From assembly GCA_027071315.1 (NCBI GenBank), contig JALSUP010000042.1, positions 1 to 40,244 of the forward strand: a stretch of DNA of 40,244 nucleotides, given 5' to 3'. The position numbers and the translations under genes are program-made. This document shows positions 1 through 36,722 of the stretch, one piece after another. Every line of letters begins with the position of its first letter. Position 1 is the stretch's first letter. A model generated the notes under the pieces. It had not been told where the DNA came from, ran no database searches, and was given only the letters and a program-made list of their open reading frames with translations. This DNA comes from Sulfurovum sp. GTDB lineage: Bacteria; Campylobacterota; Campylobacteria; Campylobacterales; Sulfurovaceae.

Positions 1-181
1 GATTCTCAGACAAGGATACAAGCGCATCTTTAACAAAAGTTAAATCAGATTCGGAACGTACGATGATCTGCCCTTTGCCAAGTTCCAGACCCTCATCATA
101 AATATTGAGAATATAATCCGCAATAATGTCAACAAAAGAGTGATCAAGTGTGATGGTCAGTTCATAATATTTATCTTGCAT
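1..181 (-). CDS. prmA: Ribosomal protein L11 methyltransferase, N-terminal part (cut by the window edge)
   Basis: The first 60 codons read from an ATG at 181 and run off the window. The product begins [16 protein letters not shown] and continues with a segment containing [17 protein letters not shown]. This resembles the N-terminal domain of Campylobacterota PrmA, which methylates ribosomal protein L11 in the cytoplasm. The SAM-binding domain lies outside the window, so the call rests on the N-terminus and on position directly after hisA. The start codon overlaps the end of hisA by 11 bases, implying co-transcription and translational coupling with hisH-hisA. Naming is fairly but not fully certain. 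Confidence 0.65.
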
Positions 182-884
182 TGGCTACCTTAAACGCTTG
201 TTCCAGATCGAGTGTTCCTTCATAAAAGGCTTTTCCGACAATGGTTCCGTCAATATCTGCTGCGATGAGTCCATTAATATCTGTCATATCTTTCAGACCG
301 CCTGAGGCAATGGTTTCAAGCCCTGAGGCTTCCTGAATCTCTTTGGTGAATGCTATGTTCACACCGGTCATCATGCCGTCACGTCCCACATCGGTACAGA
401 TGATCGCTTTGACACCGCAGGCTGCAAATTCACGTGCAAGGTCAGTCGCTTTCATGTCGGAAGTCTCTGCCCATCCTTCTACCGCGACCATGCCGTCTAT
501 GGCATCAATACCCACGACAATAGGATACTTCGCCGCCATATCTTTAACGAACTGCGCATCTTTCACGGCAATAGAACCTAAAATAAGTCTGTCTATTCCC
601 AGTTCCAAATACATCTTTATGGTCTCTTCATCACGAATTCCTCCGCCGAGTTCCAGTTTCAGATTACAGTTCTTGCGGATCTTTTTGATCTGCTCCAGGT
701 TTTCAGGTTTCCCTGCAAAGGCACCGTTAAGGTCAACAAGGTGTACCCATTCGCTCCCAAGCTCTTCAAATCTTTTAGCCACCTGCCATGGCTCATCTGA
801 GTAGATCTTCGCTGAATCCATCAGCCCTTTGCTGAGTCTGACGGCTTTGCCGTCTTTAAGATCGATCGCTGGTAATATTGTCAT
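171..884 (-). CDS. hisA: Phosphoribosylformimino-5-aminoimidazole carboxamide ribotide isomerase
   Basis: HisA catalyses the Amadori-type isomerisation of ProFAR to PRFAR, the fourth step of histidine biosynthesis, in the cytoplasm. The 237-residue product is full length for this (beta/alpha)8 barrel. It opens with [17 protein letters not shown] and has the catalytic aspartates expected at D8 and D127 (in VVGIDAIDG). The phosphate-binding segments LELGGGIRD and TIASGGLKD are present. It lies downstream of hisH, separated by a hairpin-forming repeat, and its end overlaps prmA. The trio is probably transcribed from the promoter upstream of hisH. Confidence 0.96.
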
Positions 885-963: not shown

Positions 964-1593
964 TTATAATTTTGAAAAATTCTCTATAATTTTTAAACCA
1001 TTCTCATGGCTCTTTTCCGGGTGTGGCTGTATGCCGTAAATATTCCCGTTCTGTACTGCCGAGACAAACTCGTATCCGTAGTGGGTCTTTCCAATGGCAT
1101 ACTTGTTATCGCAGACAGCATGGAAAGAGTGCACAAAGTAGAGGTAAAACTCATTATCTAAACTTTTGAACAGAGGGCAACCACGAGGGTTTGCCCCTAC
1201 GGATTGCACAAAAAGTTCATTCCATCCCATATGCGGTACTTTCAGCCTGTGGTCGAACTTGCTTTCATCAAAAGCAAGAACTTTTCCAGGAATGAGCCCC
1301 AAACCTTCTGTAGCGCCGAACTCTTCGGAACTCTCAAACAGTAACTGCATCCCCAGACAGATACCCAACAGGGGTTTTCCGCTTTTGGCATAGGCTTTAA
1401 CGGCCTCATCCATACCGTTGCTTTTCAAGTGCTCCATCGCATCACCAAAGGCACCGACACCCGGCAAAATGAGTTTGTCATACTGTGCAAGTCTGGAGGG
1501 GTCAGACTCAAGTCTGGCATCTGCTCCTACCTTGGCAAAAGCATTAATGACAGAAGCAAGGTTCCCCATATTGTAATCGACGATTCCTATCAC
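964..1593 (-). CDS. hisH: Imidazole glycerol phosphate synthase, glutamine amidotransferase subunit
   Basis: HisH hydrolyses glutamine and channels ammonia to HisF to make imidazole glycerol phosphate in histidine biosynthesis. The 209-residue product has the class I amidotransferase nucleophile in LLGICLGMQ (C79) and the His-Glu pair in PHPEKS (H191, E193). The start is a GTG at 1593 preceded by AAGGA at seven bases spacing. Residues about 130-140 (QSVGANPRGCP) are encoded by a palindromic repeat and look like an in-frame insertion between the conserved HMGWNEL and PLF segments. A TATAAT box lies 35 bases upstream. Confidence 0.95.
   Translation of the reverse strand: MIGIVDYNMGNLASVINAFAKVGADARLESDPSRLAQYDKLILPGVGAFGDAMEHLKSNGMDEAVKAYAKSGKPLLGICLGMQLLFESSEEFGATEGLGLIPGKVLAFDESKFDHRLKVPHMGWNELFVQSVGANPRGCPLFKSLDNEFYLYFVHSFHAVCDNKYAIGKTHYGYEFVSAVQNGNIYGIQPHPEKSHENGLKIIENFSKL
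1173..1200. repeat. Palindromic repeat inserted in frame within hisH
   Basis: The segment reads GAGGGCAACC, a short centre, then GGGTTTGCCCCTAC. GGGCAA and TTGCCC pair perfectly around a small loop. It encodes QSVGANPRGC in HisH, between two conserved motifs that are normally closer together. It resembles the palindromic GTAGGGGCAA...TTGCCC elements seen dispersed in many bacterial genomes; this resemblance is from memory. The reading frame is kept, so HisH is probably still functional with a surface-loop extension. Confidence 0.6.
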
Positions 1594-17026: not shown

Positions 17027-18083
17027 TTGGAGTTTCCTTTTTTGTACTAAAAAGTTTAAATGGGTTTTTTAATGTTTTTTTCATCTTTTCTATAAAGTGG
17101 ATGATTCTGTCACTTTTTTCAAGAAGATGTATGGTAGATTGCATTTGCGCTGAAGTCTCTTGCTTGATCGCTGAAGTCTCTTGCTTGATCGCTGAAGTCT
17201 CTTGCTTGATCGCTGAAGTCTCTTGCTTGATCTCTGATAAATATGGCATTTGCCGCAATATGTATTCCATGTGAACGCGTTCATTTATATACGTCCCAAG
17301 ACCTGTTCCTGTCCCGTTAAGGTCTTCCCTGAGCCATTGGTTCAATAGTTGTTGCCGATACAGCATATGTTTGTCGACCCCTGCAATGACTGTATTGGCC
17401 ATGACTCCTGTAGCGTTAAAACGATGGTGATAGTTTGCCAAAAACTCTGGGAGAACTGCTATATCGTATTTGAGAAGAAACTTGATATGAAAATCCCAAT
17501 CTCCCAGTACAGGCAAGGCTTCATTGAAATATCCAAGCTCTTTACAAACTTTTAGTGAAAAAAGAAAAGAAATAGGAGGAAACATGTTTTCATACAGCAT
17601 TCTGTCAAGGGAGATCAGTCCGGGTTTGATCCAGTGGTTATAGGGTTCCGTATAGTCTATGGTTACCTTCTCATCTTTCACAGTTTCTGCAACCATGGTG
17701 CTGTAACAAACGATTCCCTGTATTGTGGGTATTTTTTTTTGTTCAGCGTGAAGGGTTGTGAGTGACTGTTCCAGAAAGTTTACTGCCCAGGAGTCGTCAT
17801 CATCATGTATTACAGCATGGTCAGTGTCGAGTGTTTTCAGCCCAATATTACTGGCTGCTTCCATACCGACGGAACTTGGGTTGTGTATGACTGTTATCTG
17901 GTCTGCATATTCAGGATGGAGCGATACAAGCGCATCTACACTTTCCCTTTCTCCTCCATCATTGACAATCACCAGTTTCCAGTGCGGGTATGTTTGGTTG
18001 GTAACACTCTCAATAGCGCGACGCAGTAATACAGATCTGTTTTTTGTTCTGGTAATAATGCCTACAGTAGGTTTCTTGTTCAT
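17019..18083 (-). CDS. GT2 glycosyltransferase with a heptad-repeat tail
   Basis: The 354-residue product starts with a GT-A fold: VGIITRTKNRSVLLRRAIES, LVIVNDGGERESVDAL and AVIHDDDDSWAVNFLE (DxD near residue 95). A conserved ALPVLGDWDFHIKFLL follows. The C-terminal 80 residues contain four to five tandem IKQETSA heptads predicted to form a coiled coil, then a basic tail (KKTLKNPFKLFSTKKETPND), so it may oligomerise or attach to the membrane or a partner. The heptads are encoded by a perfect 21-base tandem repeat that can change in length without a frameshift. Donor sugar is unknown. Confidence 0.85.
   Translation of the reverse strand: MNKKPTVGIITRTKNRSVLLRRAIESVTNQTYPHWKLVIVNDGGERESVDALVSLHPEYADQITVIHNPSSVGMEAASNIGLKTLDTDHAVIHDDDDSWAVNFLEQSLTTLHAEQKKIPTIQGIVCYSTMVAETVKDEKVTIDYTEPYNHWIKPGLISLDRMLYENMFPPISFLFSLKVCKELGYFNEALPVLGDWDFHIKFLLKYDIAVLPEFLANYHHRFNATGVMANTVIAGVDKHMLYRQQLLNQWLREDLNGTGTGLGTYINERVHMEYILRQMPYLSEIKQETSAIKQETSAIKQETSAIKQETSAQMQSTIHLLEKSDRIIHFIEKMKKTLKNPFKLFSTKKETPND
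17149..17232 (-). repeat. Perfect 21-bp tandem repeat (4 copies) in a GT2 gene
   Basis: Four identical 21-base units lie end to end, each encoding one IKQETSA heptad in the glycosyltransferase tail. Identity at all codon positions indicates recent expansion by slippage or recombination. Because 21 is a multiple of three, copy changes alter coiled-coil length but keep the frame. Confidence 0.95.
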
Positions 18084-23550: not shown

Positions 23551-24671
23551 TGTTTATTCCAACTATTAACAAGTTTCACAATATGTATTGTATCTTCTTG
23601 TTTTTGAATCCCACTAATCGGCAAACTCAAAACTTCAGCATGAATTTGTTCAGAAATAGGGTAGCTTTCATCAGCCCACTCTTTATAGGCTTCTTGCTTA
23701 TGTGGAGGTATAGGGTAATGGATGAGTGATTGCACACCGTTTTCTAGTAAATACTTTTGTAGTGCGTCTCGTTTTGAAGTTCTTATGACAAAAACATGCC
23801 AGACGTGGTTTTTGTAATTTTGAATTTTGAATTTTGAATTTTGAATTGGGAGGGTTATGTCTGGGTTTTTGATATTTTCTAGATAATAGGCTGCGATTTC
23901 TCTTCTGTGTTCAGTCTCTTTGTCCAAATGTCTTAATTTTACTCGTAACATTGCAGCTTGCATCTCGTCGAGTCTACTGTTGACACCCTTGTAAAGGTTT
24001 TGATACTTTTTATGACTTCCATAGTTGGCTAAAGCTTTGATGGTTGTTGCCAATTCATGATCGTTAGTAGTCACCGCTCCAGCATCACCTAATGCTCCTA
24101 AATTTTTACCGGGGTAAAAACTAAAACCACTTGCATCACCTAGGTTCCCACTTCGTTTCTCGTTAAAATAAGCACCATGTGACTGAGCAGAGTCCTCAAT
24201 GACTTTGAGACTATACTTTTTTGCAATAGCATTTATGTCGTCCATCTCGCATGTTTGTCCATACAAATGAACTGGCATAATTGCTTTTGTTTTTGAGGTG
24301 ATCTTTTCTTCTACTTTTTTAGGATCAAGTAAATAAGTGTTGATGTCTGGTTCAACAAGTATAGGGACTAAGTTGTTCTCACTGATAGCAAGTATGGAAG
24401 CGATGTAGGTATTGGACGGCACGATGACTTCATCACCATCTTTCATGACACCCATCTCTTTATAGGCTCTGATTATCAATGTCAAGGCATCCAAACCGTT
24501 AGCGACACCTATGGCATGTTTGGTACCACAATACTGAGCAAACTCTTTTTCAAAGGCATGACACTCCTTACCTTGAACATACCAGCCACTATCAATGACT
24601 TTTGTACAGGCTTCTATAAGTTCATCTCTGTATTGAGCATTGATGTTTTTTAAATCTAAAAATGGAATCAT
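23547..24671 (-). CDS. fdtB: DegT/DnrJ/EryC1-type sugar aminotransferase (FdtB-like)
   Basis: This PLP enzyme is expected to aminate a dTDP-3-keto-6-deoxyhexose to a 3-amino sugar. The 374-residue product starts [20 protein letters not shown] and has [32 protein letters not shown] and [18 protein letters not shown], where the lysine binds PLP. Residues about 276-286 ([14 protein letters not shown]) are encoded by four copies of a 7-bp repeat and replace the short loop before HVWHVFVIR. FdtA, a GNAT gene and this gene together point to Fuc3NAc or Qui3NAc synthesis. RmlA and RmlB, needed upstream, are not in the window. Confidence 0.85.
23818..23845 (-). repeat. 7-bp tandem repeat (TTCAAAA x4) inside fdtB
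   Basis: Read on the coding strand, four TTCAAAA units follow one another and encode NSKFKIQ-type residues in frame. The insertion lies in the loop before the conserved HVWH motif. The opposite strand would contain TGA in this array, so it sits in the only orientation that is open in all frames. Confidence 0.93.
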
Positions 24672-25591: not shown

Positions 25592-26991
25592 GCATTTATC
25601 TTTTGTAGATAATATTGCCCCTGTGTATAAAAAGTTGAATAAAACTGTTTTTCAGGGTTTTTAAAATTAATATTCACTGTTTCTACATTTTTAATGACAT
25701 CTAGAAATTGATGTTGCTGATTATGAATAGTTGGGAGTTCTATAGCTACACCTATATTGTAAACCCCTGCTTTTATAGGGATGTCAATGGCAATAGTAGA
25801 AACATAAATCTCGCTTTCCTGCACACTTGGCAGCATGACATCGTCTTGTGTACTTATCCAGGCAAGTTGCTGTACTCCATCGAGACTGGAGAGTGCACCA
25901 GCAATAACAAAGGTAGGAAGTGACTCTTTAAACAGGATAGACATCTGTAAATAATAACGTTTCTTTGAGATAAGTTCTTTTGTTCTTGCGAATGTTTCAT
26001 CTAAGATAGCTACATCTAAGATCTGTGCCCGTTCATCTCCATAACGCTGCATGATATCGGTAGGGACAATAGCGTCGGTTAGTGCGACAACCACGGGAAT
26101 GGCATCATTGGTGAAATCGTCCATGCTAGAGTCTGTCTCCAGAGTCTCTTGCATTTCCAACTCTTTGAGGTTTTCTGCCACAGCACAATGGTTCATCTCT
26201 ATGTATTGGTCTGTCACGCTGCCAACATCACCAAAGTCTATAAGCTTCCCTTTGTCTATGAATACTGCCTGATTACAGAGTGTTTTGACGGAATGGGTGT
26301 CGTGACTGACAAACAGAACCGTTACACCCTGTTCCATGAGAGATGTCATTTTAGCCATACATTTAGCCTGAAAAACCATGTCACCTACAGAGAGAGCCTC
26401 GTCGACTATTAAGATATCTGCATCTATATTAATAGCAGAAGCAAAAGCAAGACGCGCAAGCATACCGCTTGAATAGCCTTTTATAGGTTGATACAGAAAG
26501 TCACCAATGTCTGCAAATGCTGCAATGGCATCTTTTTTTTGATCTATCTCTTCTTTGCTGAACCCCGTCAAAGTGCCATAAAGATAAATATTTTCAAGGC
26601 CGGTCATTTCCGGGTTGAACCCTGCACCAAGTTCCAAAATAGACGCGATCTTTCCATGTATCTCAATACTTCCACTTGTCGGTGTTAAAACACCAGTGAT
26701 CATCTTTAACAGTGTTGACTTCCCGGCACCATTTTTTCCGACAATACCAACTGTCTCGCCTTTTTTGATCTCGAATGAAACATCATTCATAGCATAGAAG
26801 TCATGGTGGTAAGACTTTTTAAAAGGGTTTAGAGCTTCTTTTAGACGGTCTTGCGGCTTGTCGTAGAGATGATATATCTTGGTAAGGTGGGAAACCTTAA
26901 TGGCGGGGTCCGGGGTCCGGGTTCCGGGTTCAGGGTTCTGGGTTCTGGGTTCTGAGTTCCGAGAAGGCTGTGTGTTGTTTTTATTTGGCAT
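25588..26991 (-). CDS. wzt: Polysaccharide ABC transporter ATP-binding protein (Wzt-like)
   Basis: Wzt energises export of undecaprenyl-linked O-polysaccharide through Wzm. The 467-residue protein has Walker A IVGKNGAGKSTLLKMITG (near residue 83), signature YSSGMLARLAFASAI, Walker B ILIVDEALSVGD and switch LFVSHDTHS. Residues about 310-460 form an extra beta-rich domain like the Wzt carbohydrate-binding domain that selects finished chains. The first 29 residues are unusual: SEPRTQNPEPGTRTPDP comes from eight 7-bp repeat units. The ATG lies inside the end of the four-helix-bundle gene (11-base overlap), so the present start depends on that inserted unit. Confidence 0.92.
   Translation of the reverse strand: MPNKNNTQPSRNSEPRTQNPEPGTRTPDPAIKVSHLTKIYHLYDKPQDRLKEALNPFKKSYHHDFYAMNDVSFEIKKGETVGIVGKNGAGKSTLLKMITGVLTPTSGSIEIHGKIASILELGAGFNPEMTGLENIYLYGTLTGFSKEEIDQKKDAIAAFADIGDFLYQPIKGYSSGMLARLAFASAINIDADILIVDEALSVGDMVFQAKCMAKMTSLMEQGVTVLFVSHDTHSVKTLCNQAVFIDKGKLIDFGDVGSVTDQYIEMNHCAVAENLKELEMQETLETDSSMDDFTNDAIPVVVALTDAIVPTDIMQRYGDERAQILDVAILDETFARTKELISKKRYYLQMSILFKESLPTFVIAGALSSLDGVQQLAWISTQDDVMLPSVQESEIYVSTIAIDIPIKAGVYNIGVAIELPTIHNQQHQFLDVIKNVETVNINFKNPEKQFYSTFYTQGQYYLQKINA
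26905..26960 (-). repeat. 7-bp tandem array (8 units, AGAACCC-like) in the 5' end of wzt
   Basis: Eight contiguous heptamers can be counted. On the plus strand they are two GGGGTCC, one GGGTTCC, one GGGTTCA, three GGGTTCT and one GAGTTCC. Read in wzt they encode SEPRTQNPEP and following residues in frame. The inner end (CTGAGTTCCGAGAAGG) recurs inverted on the far side of the four-helix-bundle gene. Unit drift toward the outer end suggests age differences along the array. Confidence 0.92.
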
Positions 26992-28449: not shown

Positions 28450-28857
28450 GTAATATGAATTTTGAATGCTGAATATTTAATTATTTAACTTCATTCTCCA
28501 AATACCAACGATACACTGTTTCAATACCTTCTTCTAACTCTACAGAGTGTTTCCACCCTAATGCATTTAATTTGGAAGGATCTGTGAGTTTGATCATTGT
28601 GCCATCTGGTTTTTCTGTATTAAAAATAAGCTGTCCACGGTAACCTACTATCTTTTTGATCGTTTCTGCTAACTCTTTTATAGATACATCTACACCTGTA
28701 CCAATGTTGATGTGTGTATTTCTTATTTCTTTAGCATCTGGATCATAAGTGTCTTCAAAGTTTCTGTTCTCCATGAGGAATACGCAGGCATCAGCCATAT
28801 CGTGACTCCATAGAAATTCACGGCGTGGCTTGCCACTGCCCCAAATCTCTATGGAAA

Positions 28858-28885
28858 TGTTGAATGTTGAATGTTGAATGTTGAA
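28858..28885 (-). repeat. 7-bp tandem repeat (TTCAACA x4) in the 3' half of fcl
   Basis: Four perfect TTCAACA units on the coding strand encode FNIQHSTFN in frame, just before the conserved [10 protein letters not shown] motif. Orientation is the stop-free one. This is the second array in the same gene. Confidence 0.94.
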
Positions 28886-29506
28886 TTGTTTTTTGATACC
28901 ATACTTTTCAAGTATGTTTAGTATTTCATCTTCTGATGCATTTCCATTTATACCTTCTATGGAAAATTTATTGAGATCTGCTCTGATGGCATCCCAGTTG
29001 TTTTCTTCCAGAGCTTTGCCTAAGTGTATCTTTCTGATAAGCGCAGGCAATACATGTGACTTCTCAAGGTCGAAGTTGTCGTTGGGACCGTAGAGGTTGG
29101 TGGGCATGACTGAGATGTAGTTGGTACCGTGCTGAAGGTTGTAAGACTCGCACATCTTGATGCCGGCGATCTTGGCGATGGCGTAAGGCTCGTTGGTGTA
29201 TTCCAGGGTGTCTGTCAGTAGACAGTCCTCCGGCATAGGCTGTGGTGCGTTTTTAGGGTAGATGCAGGTGGAACCCAGAAACATCAGCTTCTTGACATCA
29301 TGTTTGTAACTCTGGTGGATGATATTGTTCTGGATCTGCAGGTTTTCGTAAATGAAGTCTGCTCTGTAAGTGTTGTTGGCAACGATGCCGCCTACTTTAG
29401 CAGCAGCCAAAAATACGAACTCGGGAACCTCAGATTTAAAAAAGTCTTCTGTGGCTGTTGAGTCTAAGAGATCGAGTTTGACGTACTTAACTGAGTTCGT
29501 ATTTAA

Positions 29507-29719: not shown

Positions 29720-30874
29720 CTATTCGAAATAGTTCATTGTCTTATATCCGCCATCTTTCAAATACTGGTCTTTGGTCATCAACTTCAGGTCTGACTTCAT
29801 CATATCGTTGACAAGGTCTTCAAGTTTATGTTCTCTTGTCCATCCCAACTTACTCTCTGCTTTAGTCGGATCACCAATGAGAAGGTCAACTTCTGTTGGG
29901 CGGAAATAACGGGCATCAACTTCGACAACTGTCGAGCCGATGCAATGTTGAATGTTGAATGTTGAATTTTTAATGACTTGATTGTATCGATCTTGATCGA
30001 TGGATTTGATGATACCAACTTCATCGACCCCTTCACCTTTGAATTCAAGCTCGATGCCTGCGTAGGCAAATGCCATTCTGACAAAGTCACGTACAGTAGT
30101 GGTCACACCTGTAGCGATGACCCAGTCTTCCGGTTCGTCTGCCTGGAGAATAAGCCACATCATTCTGACATAGTCTTTGGCATGCCCCCAGTCACGTTTA
30201 GCGTTCAGGTTACCCAGGAAAAGTTTGTCTTGAAGACCAAGTGCTATTTTAGATGCTGCACGGGTGATCTTTCTGGTTACAAAAGTCTCACCACGAACCG
30301 GAGACTCATGGTTGAACAAGATACCGTTACAGGCGAACATATCGTAGGCTTCTCTGTAGTTCACAGTGATCCAGTAAGCGTACATTTTGGCTACGGCGTA
30401 GGGAGAACGCGGGTAGAAAGGTGTGGTCTCTGTCTGTGGGACTTCCTGTACTTTTCCGTAGAGTTCAGAAGTTGATGCCTGATAGATACGTGTCTTTTCA
30501 GTCAGACCCAAAAAACGTACCGCTTCCAAAATGCGTAGTGTTCCCGTACCGTCGGCATTGGCGACATATTCCGGAGTTTCAAAAGAGACAGCCACATGAG
30601 ACATGGCAGCGAGGTTGTAGATCTCGTCAGGTTGTGTCTCCTGGATGATACGGGTGAGGTTCATGGAGTCTGTCATTTCACCGTAATGAAGAATGAGGTG
30701 ACGGTTCTCAACATGCGGATCTTCATAAAGGTGATCAATACGGTCTGTGTTGAAAAGAGAAGCTCTTCTTTTGATACCGTGGACAATGTATCCTTTTTTT
30801 AAGAGGAACTCCGCTAAGTAAGAACCGTCCTGTCCTGTGATGCCTGTGATCAGTGCTACTTTTTGTGCTGCCAT
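29720..30874 (-). CDS. gmd: GDP-mannose 4,6-dehydratase
   Basis: Gmd converts GDP-mannose to GDP-4-keto-6-deoxymannose, the substrate of Fcl. The 384-residue SDR has the NADP-binding [19 protein letters not shown], the active site [16 protein letters not shown] and [15 protein letters not shown], and the C-terminal [24 protein letters not shown]. Residues NSTFNIQHC, between RYNQVIK and IGSTVVEVD, are encoded by three 7-bp units in frame and appear to be an insertion in a loop. AAAGGAAAGAACTA precedes the ATG. The start overlaps the last codon of a GalU-like remnant. Confidence 0.95.
29946..29966 (-). repeat. 7-bp tandem repeat (TTCAACA x3) inside gmd
   Basis: Three perfect units on the coding strand encode STFNIQH. 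The reading frame of gmd is open here, so this array is in an ON state; one unit more or less would truncate Gmd with about 80 residues missing. Confidence 0.94.
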
Positions 30875-36512: not shown

Positions 36513-36719
36513 ATTTTGTTTCCTTGTTGGTCTTCCGTTGATATTTATTCATATAATAACATAGCAATCAGAAAATAGGAATTAAATATGAAGATTCAGT
36601 CTTAAAAAACATGCGAATTAAAGAAAAGAGATGCAAAATTATTCAACATTCAACATTCAACATTCAACATTCAACATTCAACATTCAACATTCAACATTC
36701 AACATTCAACATTCAACAT
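36513..36719. other. Gap between the outer-membrane protein gene and ccoS
   Basis: About 130 bases upstream of the outer-membrane protein hold AT-rich sequence with possible but unconvincing -10 boxes. The rest is the 11-unit 7-bp array. No gene is supported. Confidence 0.6.
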
Positions 36720-36722
36720 TCA
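36642..36722 (+). repeat. 7-bp tandem array (TTCAACA, 11.6 copies) at the ccoS stop codon
   Basis: Eleven perfect TTCAACA units run on the plus strand with no interruption, the longest array of the window. On the minus strand the first heptamer reads TGAATGT, and its TGA is the ccoS stop codon, so the array defines the end of CcoS. Relative to ccoS the orientation is the stop-containing one, unlike the in-frame arrays in fdtB, gmd and fcl. Confidence 0.96.

Follow-up and report, generated by a model that had tools for sequence, protein, structure and literature searches.

GTAG-tagged repetitive extragenic palindromes (REPs), of which 24 families have been published, are the closest described relatives of the element reported here, and Sulfurovum NBC37-1 has been named as a carrier (Di Nocera et al. 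2013, PMC3733652). The same paper lists genes of several species that contain REPs in frame, many of them replication and repair genes, and assigns RPE-4 and RPE-6, two of the Rickettsia palindromic elements (RPE), to the CGTC REPs. We analyzed a stretch of 40,244 nucleotides from a Sulfurovum sp. (assembly GCA_027071315.1, contig JALSUP010000042.1, positions 1 to 40,244, hereafter the window), in which a palindromic repeat lies in frame within hisH. By its sequence, its structure and the neighboring transposase, this insert is a GTAG-tagged REP. Intragenic REPs are already known, and as an element the hisH REP belongs to a known class and is unremarkable within it; the unusual aspect is that repeats of several classes recur at this single site.

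In the window, hisH (964-1593, minus strand; NCBIfam TIGR01855, E 2.3e-66) encodes the 209-amino acid glutaminase subunit of imidazole glycerol phosphate synthase. The protein has the class I glutaminase triad (C79, H191, and E193, all in invariant columns of the hisH alignment) and the HisH fold, its predicted model matching solved HisH structures best, with V. cholerae HisH as the top structural match (template modeling score 0.85). Positions 1173-1200, which read GTAGGGGCAAACCCTCGTGGTTGCCCTC on the minus strand, include the 26-bp REP GTAGGGGCAAACCCTCGTGGTTGCCC (1175-1200, minus strand). On that strand it starts with the GTAG tag (1197-1200), the defining mark of GTAG REPs (PMC3733652), followed by the 5' arm of the hairpin, GGGCAA-A-CC with one bulged A (1188-1196), and the 3' arm, GGTTGCCC (1175-1182). 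The fold as single-stranded DNA (-6.7 kcal/mol, z -2.9) has the GTAG unpaired and the arms joined in an 8-bp stem with a single bulged base. With up to three mismatches allowed, no copy is expected in the window by chance. Ten codons (1174-1203, minus strand; residues 131-140, SVGANPRGCP), most of them encoded by the REP, replace the four (KETP) found in insert-free relatives of the genus, which is a net gain of six codons, and the hisH open reading frame (ORF) stays open across the repeat. The sequence-only reading had placed an in-frame palindrome between two conserved motifs, and both points hold: QSVGANPRGCP is flanked by PHMGWNE (120-126) and YLYFVHS (150-156), which are invariant in the alignment, and relatives lacking the insert have a short loop instead, QKETPLF or similar. 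No relative shares the protein segment without the palindrome, and those with SVGxxxxxCP also have the palindrome, intact or mildly decayed.

The repeat is dispersed in the source genome (2.59 Mb, 217 contigs). The pattern GTAGGGGC-N6..18-GCCC has 31 matches on many contigs, and its reversed control has none. The form seen most often is GTAGGGGCAATCCCTTGTGGTTGCCC, and the copy closest to the hisH REP, at position 43632 of contig C38, is one base apart. Contig C68 carries a gene for a 161-amino acid Y1 transposase of the REP-associated tyrosine transposase (RAYT) type, with the motifs HFH and YIQNNP (PF01797, E 1.5e-10; NF047646, E 2.9e-20 and 72.7 bits versus a cut-off of 80). REPs of the hisH family lie on either side of this gene in both orientations, with inverted pairs around it. 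The hisH repeat has these features of GTAG-tagged REPs: a 20-40-bp palindrome with an unpaired terminal GTAG, dispersed copies, and a RAYT gene flanked by the repeat. The likeness to Rickettsia palindromic elements, which the sequence-only reading had also proposed, stands for behavior, since the hisH REP is inserted in frame into a conserved gene, and fails for family. With a GTAG tag and a length of 26 bp, the repeat is neither a CGTC REP nor a long RPE-1, and because it is a GTAG-type REP the comparison is an analogy of behavior. Nor is it a REPIN (REP doublet forming hairpins), which consists of two inverted REPs: the hisH REP is single, with no partner of the same family within positions 850-1650 of the window. 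A literature search on the bare REP motif returned chance matches only.

Other GTAG repeats are present in this genome. Two more RAYT-type genes, on contigs C78 and C148 (L222 and L223), each lie beside their own different GTAG repeat (GTAGGGTGCGTTTCCCAACGCACC and GTAGGGTGCGTAATCACGCACC). The intergenic gap between hisA and hisH contains a dimer (897-958) of a second GTAG REP family, GTAGGGTTGGCTTYAGCCGACC, with inverted arms at 897-918 and 937-958 and the tags pointing outward. The genome contains 44 members of this family, many of them as inverted pairs, compared with 0 for the control.

To place the hisH insert among its relatives, sequences were taken from 78 genomes of the genus, some genomes outside the genus, and 80 loci of a genome collection, which gave 101 distinct hisH sequences with the site complete. 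The loop is short in 68 of them (KETPLF type; 20-21 residues from GWNE to YLYF). Extra codons are found in the other 33, all at this one loop site, and the reading frame is kept in all 33; upstream, outside the loop, hisH length varies only by a 4-residue indel and by one residue. Eleven inserts are GTAG REPs, four are a palindrome containing GGGGTCTGACC, one is TTCGACAAGCTCAGTGACCA, and most of the rest are arrays of heptamers, with the units CTCAACG, GATGGAA, AGAAATT, or units like GTGAGCA, GTGAAAA, and TGAACAG. The kind of repeat is unclear in L159 and L160. The inserts are unrelated in sequence, and relatives with unrelated inserts have in common only the position and, usually, the length. 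The net gain is exactly six codons in 22 of the 33, irrespective of sequence, and +2, +3, +14, +16, or +34 codons in the others.

Several of these repeats were followed individually. CTCAACG arrays also occur at several further loci of the same genomes. The longest loop (+34 codons, frame open) is that of L181, in which a nested palindrome within hisH is partly tandem-duplicated (L181:2090-2200). We rejected the idea that this palindrome, found in G012, L176, and L181, is a high-copy REP and call it low-copy because its arm occurs once in G012 and its core in four genomes of the genus, with one or two mismatches. Likewise, TTCGACAAGCTCAGTGACC was rejected as a high-copy family, with only two copies in G014, and two REP-like pattern matches outside the loop (L082 and L162) came with no length change and were taken as chance. 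Within the window, coding genes of the glycan locus contain 7-bp tandem arrays (TTTTGAA, CGGGTTC, AATGTTG) at 23810-23847, 26904-26961, 28856-28886, and 29944-29975; an ATTCAAC array of 11.7 copies is intergenic (36641-36722); and a 21-bp unit is repeated 4.3 times in frame (17148-17237; IKQETSA) near the C terminus of a glycosyltransferase-like gene. The short tandemly repeated repetitive sequences (STRRs) of cyanobacteria are further heptamer direct repeats.

Insertions shared by descent were considered on a tree of HisH joined with HisA, whose gene (171-884, minus strand, identified from its ORF and relatives) lies directly downstream of hisH. The loop was left out. Many branches of the resulting gene tree are weak. 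Presence of the insert changes 22 times on this tree, and at least 8 of the changes are forced by branches with support of 95 or more. A single ancestral insertion, inherited and then diverged, lost, or spread by recombination, could be proposed for all REP-bearing hisH genes: 10 of the 11 agree in where the REP boundaries fall relative to the codons, and L116, L107, and L136 have bases downstream of the REP in common. We regard this as rather unlikely. The approximately unbiased (AU) test, which does not distinguish new insertion from horizontal transfer, rejects a single clade of all REP-bearing sequences (p-AU 7e-5), the tree requires 11 changes, the left boundary differs in L178, and the unrelated repeat kinds at the same site cannot have one origin. 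Three species (G000, G081, and L178) have the identical 26-bp REP in hisH genes that elsewhere show 65-77% DNA identity. L116 and L152 share 98.1% identity upstream of the loop and diverge just downstream of it, and the REP of L116 matches L107 together with the adjoining bases; this region looks like a short recombination tract. Some REP copies have thus probably moved between species on such tracts, and the true number of insertions lies somewhere between ~8, as given by the unrelated repeat kinds, and 22.

Repeats miswired during assembly would be a trivial source of such inserts. Most insert-bearing genomes are metagenome bins, and positions 1-1080 of the window have a second copy, 94.6% identical, at the end of contig C44 (L224), which stops inside hisH. 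Because of this copy, the bin probably mixes two strains or species; we rejected the reading of C44 as an insert-free allele from the same population, since the contig stops at window position 1080, short of the site, and is therefore uninformative. An artifact is nevertheless highly improbable, given that the frame is kept in 33 of 33 cases, that decayed copies exist, and that the single-contig genome G016 has an insert at the site, although a decayed heptamer one.

In an AlphaFold2 model (mean predicted local distance difference test score, pLDDT, of 87), residues 131-140, with pLDDT ~70, connect strands 124-129 and 148-153. Thermotoga HisH is without 13 residues of this connection, whose length therefore varies naturally. 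In sequence alignment, the counterparts of W124 and Y152 in the Thermotoga protein are W123 and Y138, which we take to lie at the HisF interface. The loop links the strands that carry W124 and Y152, a Y138A/K181A mutant structure has been deposited, and the net gain of six codons recurs in 22 of 33 inserts, all of which would suit a segment that is an adaptive part of HisH, for example one tuning the contact with HisF, the palindromic nature of its DNA being incidental. This is improbable: different species have unrelated sequences at the site, and these match dispersed repeats; 68 of 101 relatives are without an insert; and the strand connection is even shorter in Thermotoga.

Slightly less probable still is that the REP is kept in hisH as a DNA or mRNA element, with a hairpin affecting RNA decay, pausing, or supercoiling. 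The hairpin is stable, such roles have been proposed for REPs (PMC3733652), and between some hisH REPs, such as those of G007 and G082, changes in one arm are paired with changes in the other. On the other hand, heptamer arrays, which are not REP hairpins, fill the same site, and the stems are broken in some copies (G019 and L136). We rejected the view that these paired changes prove the hairpin to be under selection, as they are equally expected from insertion of different REP variants; G007 indeed has another REP with the same change.

The hisH gene is not the only one concerned. Counted from REP-centered stretches only, in-frame REPs of the source genome lie in at least four further genes, folC (C33), mutY (C126), ciaB (C135), and priA (C154, an inverted REP pair), which bears out the earlier suggestion that repeat insertion into coding DNA extends beyond the glycan locus and beyond heptamers. 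In five relatives, a related REP subtype is inside open frames in 10 of 37 copies: three in folC, two in dnaX, one each in priA, mutY, cbiB, and anmK, and one in a frame without Pfam match (the folC, priA, and mutY copies being named through alignment to tested ones). In folC, priA, mutY, and dnaX the REPs of different species occupy the homologous place, and those in priA are of different subtypes. The folC of G052 (L217:1501-1600) has a tandem pair of REP-derived segments (VGADLCVCPQNGNVGADSHICQ), where other species have one.

These observations are best accommodated by a simple scheme, which we consider likely: the hisH insert is a copy of a GTAG REP that was spread by a RAYT and kept in a length-tolerant loop. 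REPs are small non-autonomous elements thought to be spread by RAYTs; they and, separately, heptamer arrays would insert widely. Inside genes, copies would be retained where the frame is left open and the fold tolerates added residues, and hisH would offer one such place. A GTAG REP has a TAG stop in one of its three frames; the hisH copy would have been kept because the frame stayed open and the added residues were confined to an interstrand loop that tolerates changes in length. The RAYT is the presumed maker of the insertion, and the added residues are presumably near-neutral. Selection for frame, lack of a stop, and loop length, not choice of target, would account for the single site. Most likely, the hotspot consists of near-neutral insertions that survived at a place the fold can accommodate, with recombination accounting for part of their spread.

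Several points weigh against this scheme. The C68 RAYT scores under the curated NCBIfam cut-off, and the REPs nearest to it are GGGCAATCCC, whereas the hisH REP is GGGCAAACCC. Neither a target duplication nor a clean empty site is readable at hisH: ~11 bases of the short loop have been replaced, not simply interrupted, so the original insertion event cannot be read. The REP-bearing genomes are nearly all metagenome bins. Finally, tolerance alone would not predict so regular a gain, with exactly six codons added in 22 of 33 inserts. The regularity most likely reflects a structural preference for length, which does not account for it in full. Alternatively, mechanistically unrelated repeats (REPs, nested palindromes, and heptamer arrays) might insert repeatedly into the loop as a true landing site, the preferred six codons being set by the fold, with REPs and heptamers perhaps sharing a route such as single-stranded DNA on one replication strand. 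We hold this to be rather unlikely, and favor retention of RAYT-spread copies in a tolerant loop.

The hisH loop is a natural experiment in which selfish repeats become protein, one enzyme loop having been filled several times with unrelated DNA while dozens of related genomes retain it without an insert. The system makes it possible to measure how far repeat-derived peptides are tolerated, what limits their length, and how they decay, and offers a route to separate insertion bias from selection.

Compared with known systems, the hisH insert and its family agree with the GTAG REPs and RAYTs of PMC3733652 in the 20-40-bp palindrome, the unpaired GTAG, the many copies, the repeat-flanked RAYT, and the presence of some in-frame copies. 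They differ in that about one-third of related sequences have this one hisH loop filled, in part by repeats of other classes; the only same-site case in PMC3733652 is recB, in two Xanthomonas, at about one site. A mixed-class, single-loop hotspot with a preferred length therefore appears to be new in the open-access literature, with recB as the nearest report, although an earlier report is possible. Rickettsia palindromic elements (Ogata and Claverie), as they are cited in PMC3733652, similarly place palindromic DNA in frame in genes for conserved proteins; the hisH repeat is set apart by its GTAG and by a family that surrounds a RAYT. REPINs, or bacterial interspersed mosaic elements (PMC3116915, PMC2817692), have their counterpart in the inverted REP pairs around the RAYT, in priA, and between hisA and hisH, whereas the hisH copy is a lone REP. 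Finally, the TAACTGA heptamer of Beggiatoaceae (PMC4679880) likewise occurs as 7-bp tandem arrays across many loci, including some in ORFs, where it mostly lies close to protein ends, whereas the hisH heptamers fill an internal loop that in other species is the site of a REP.
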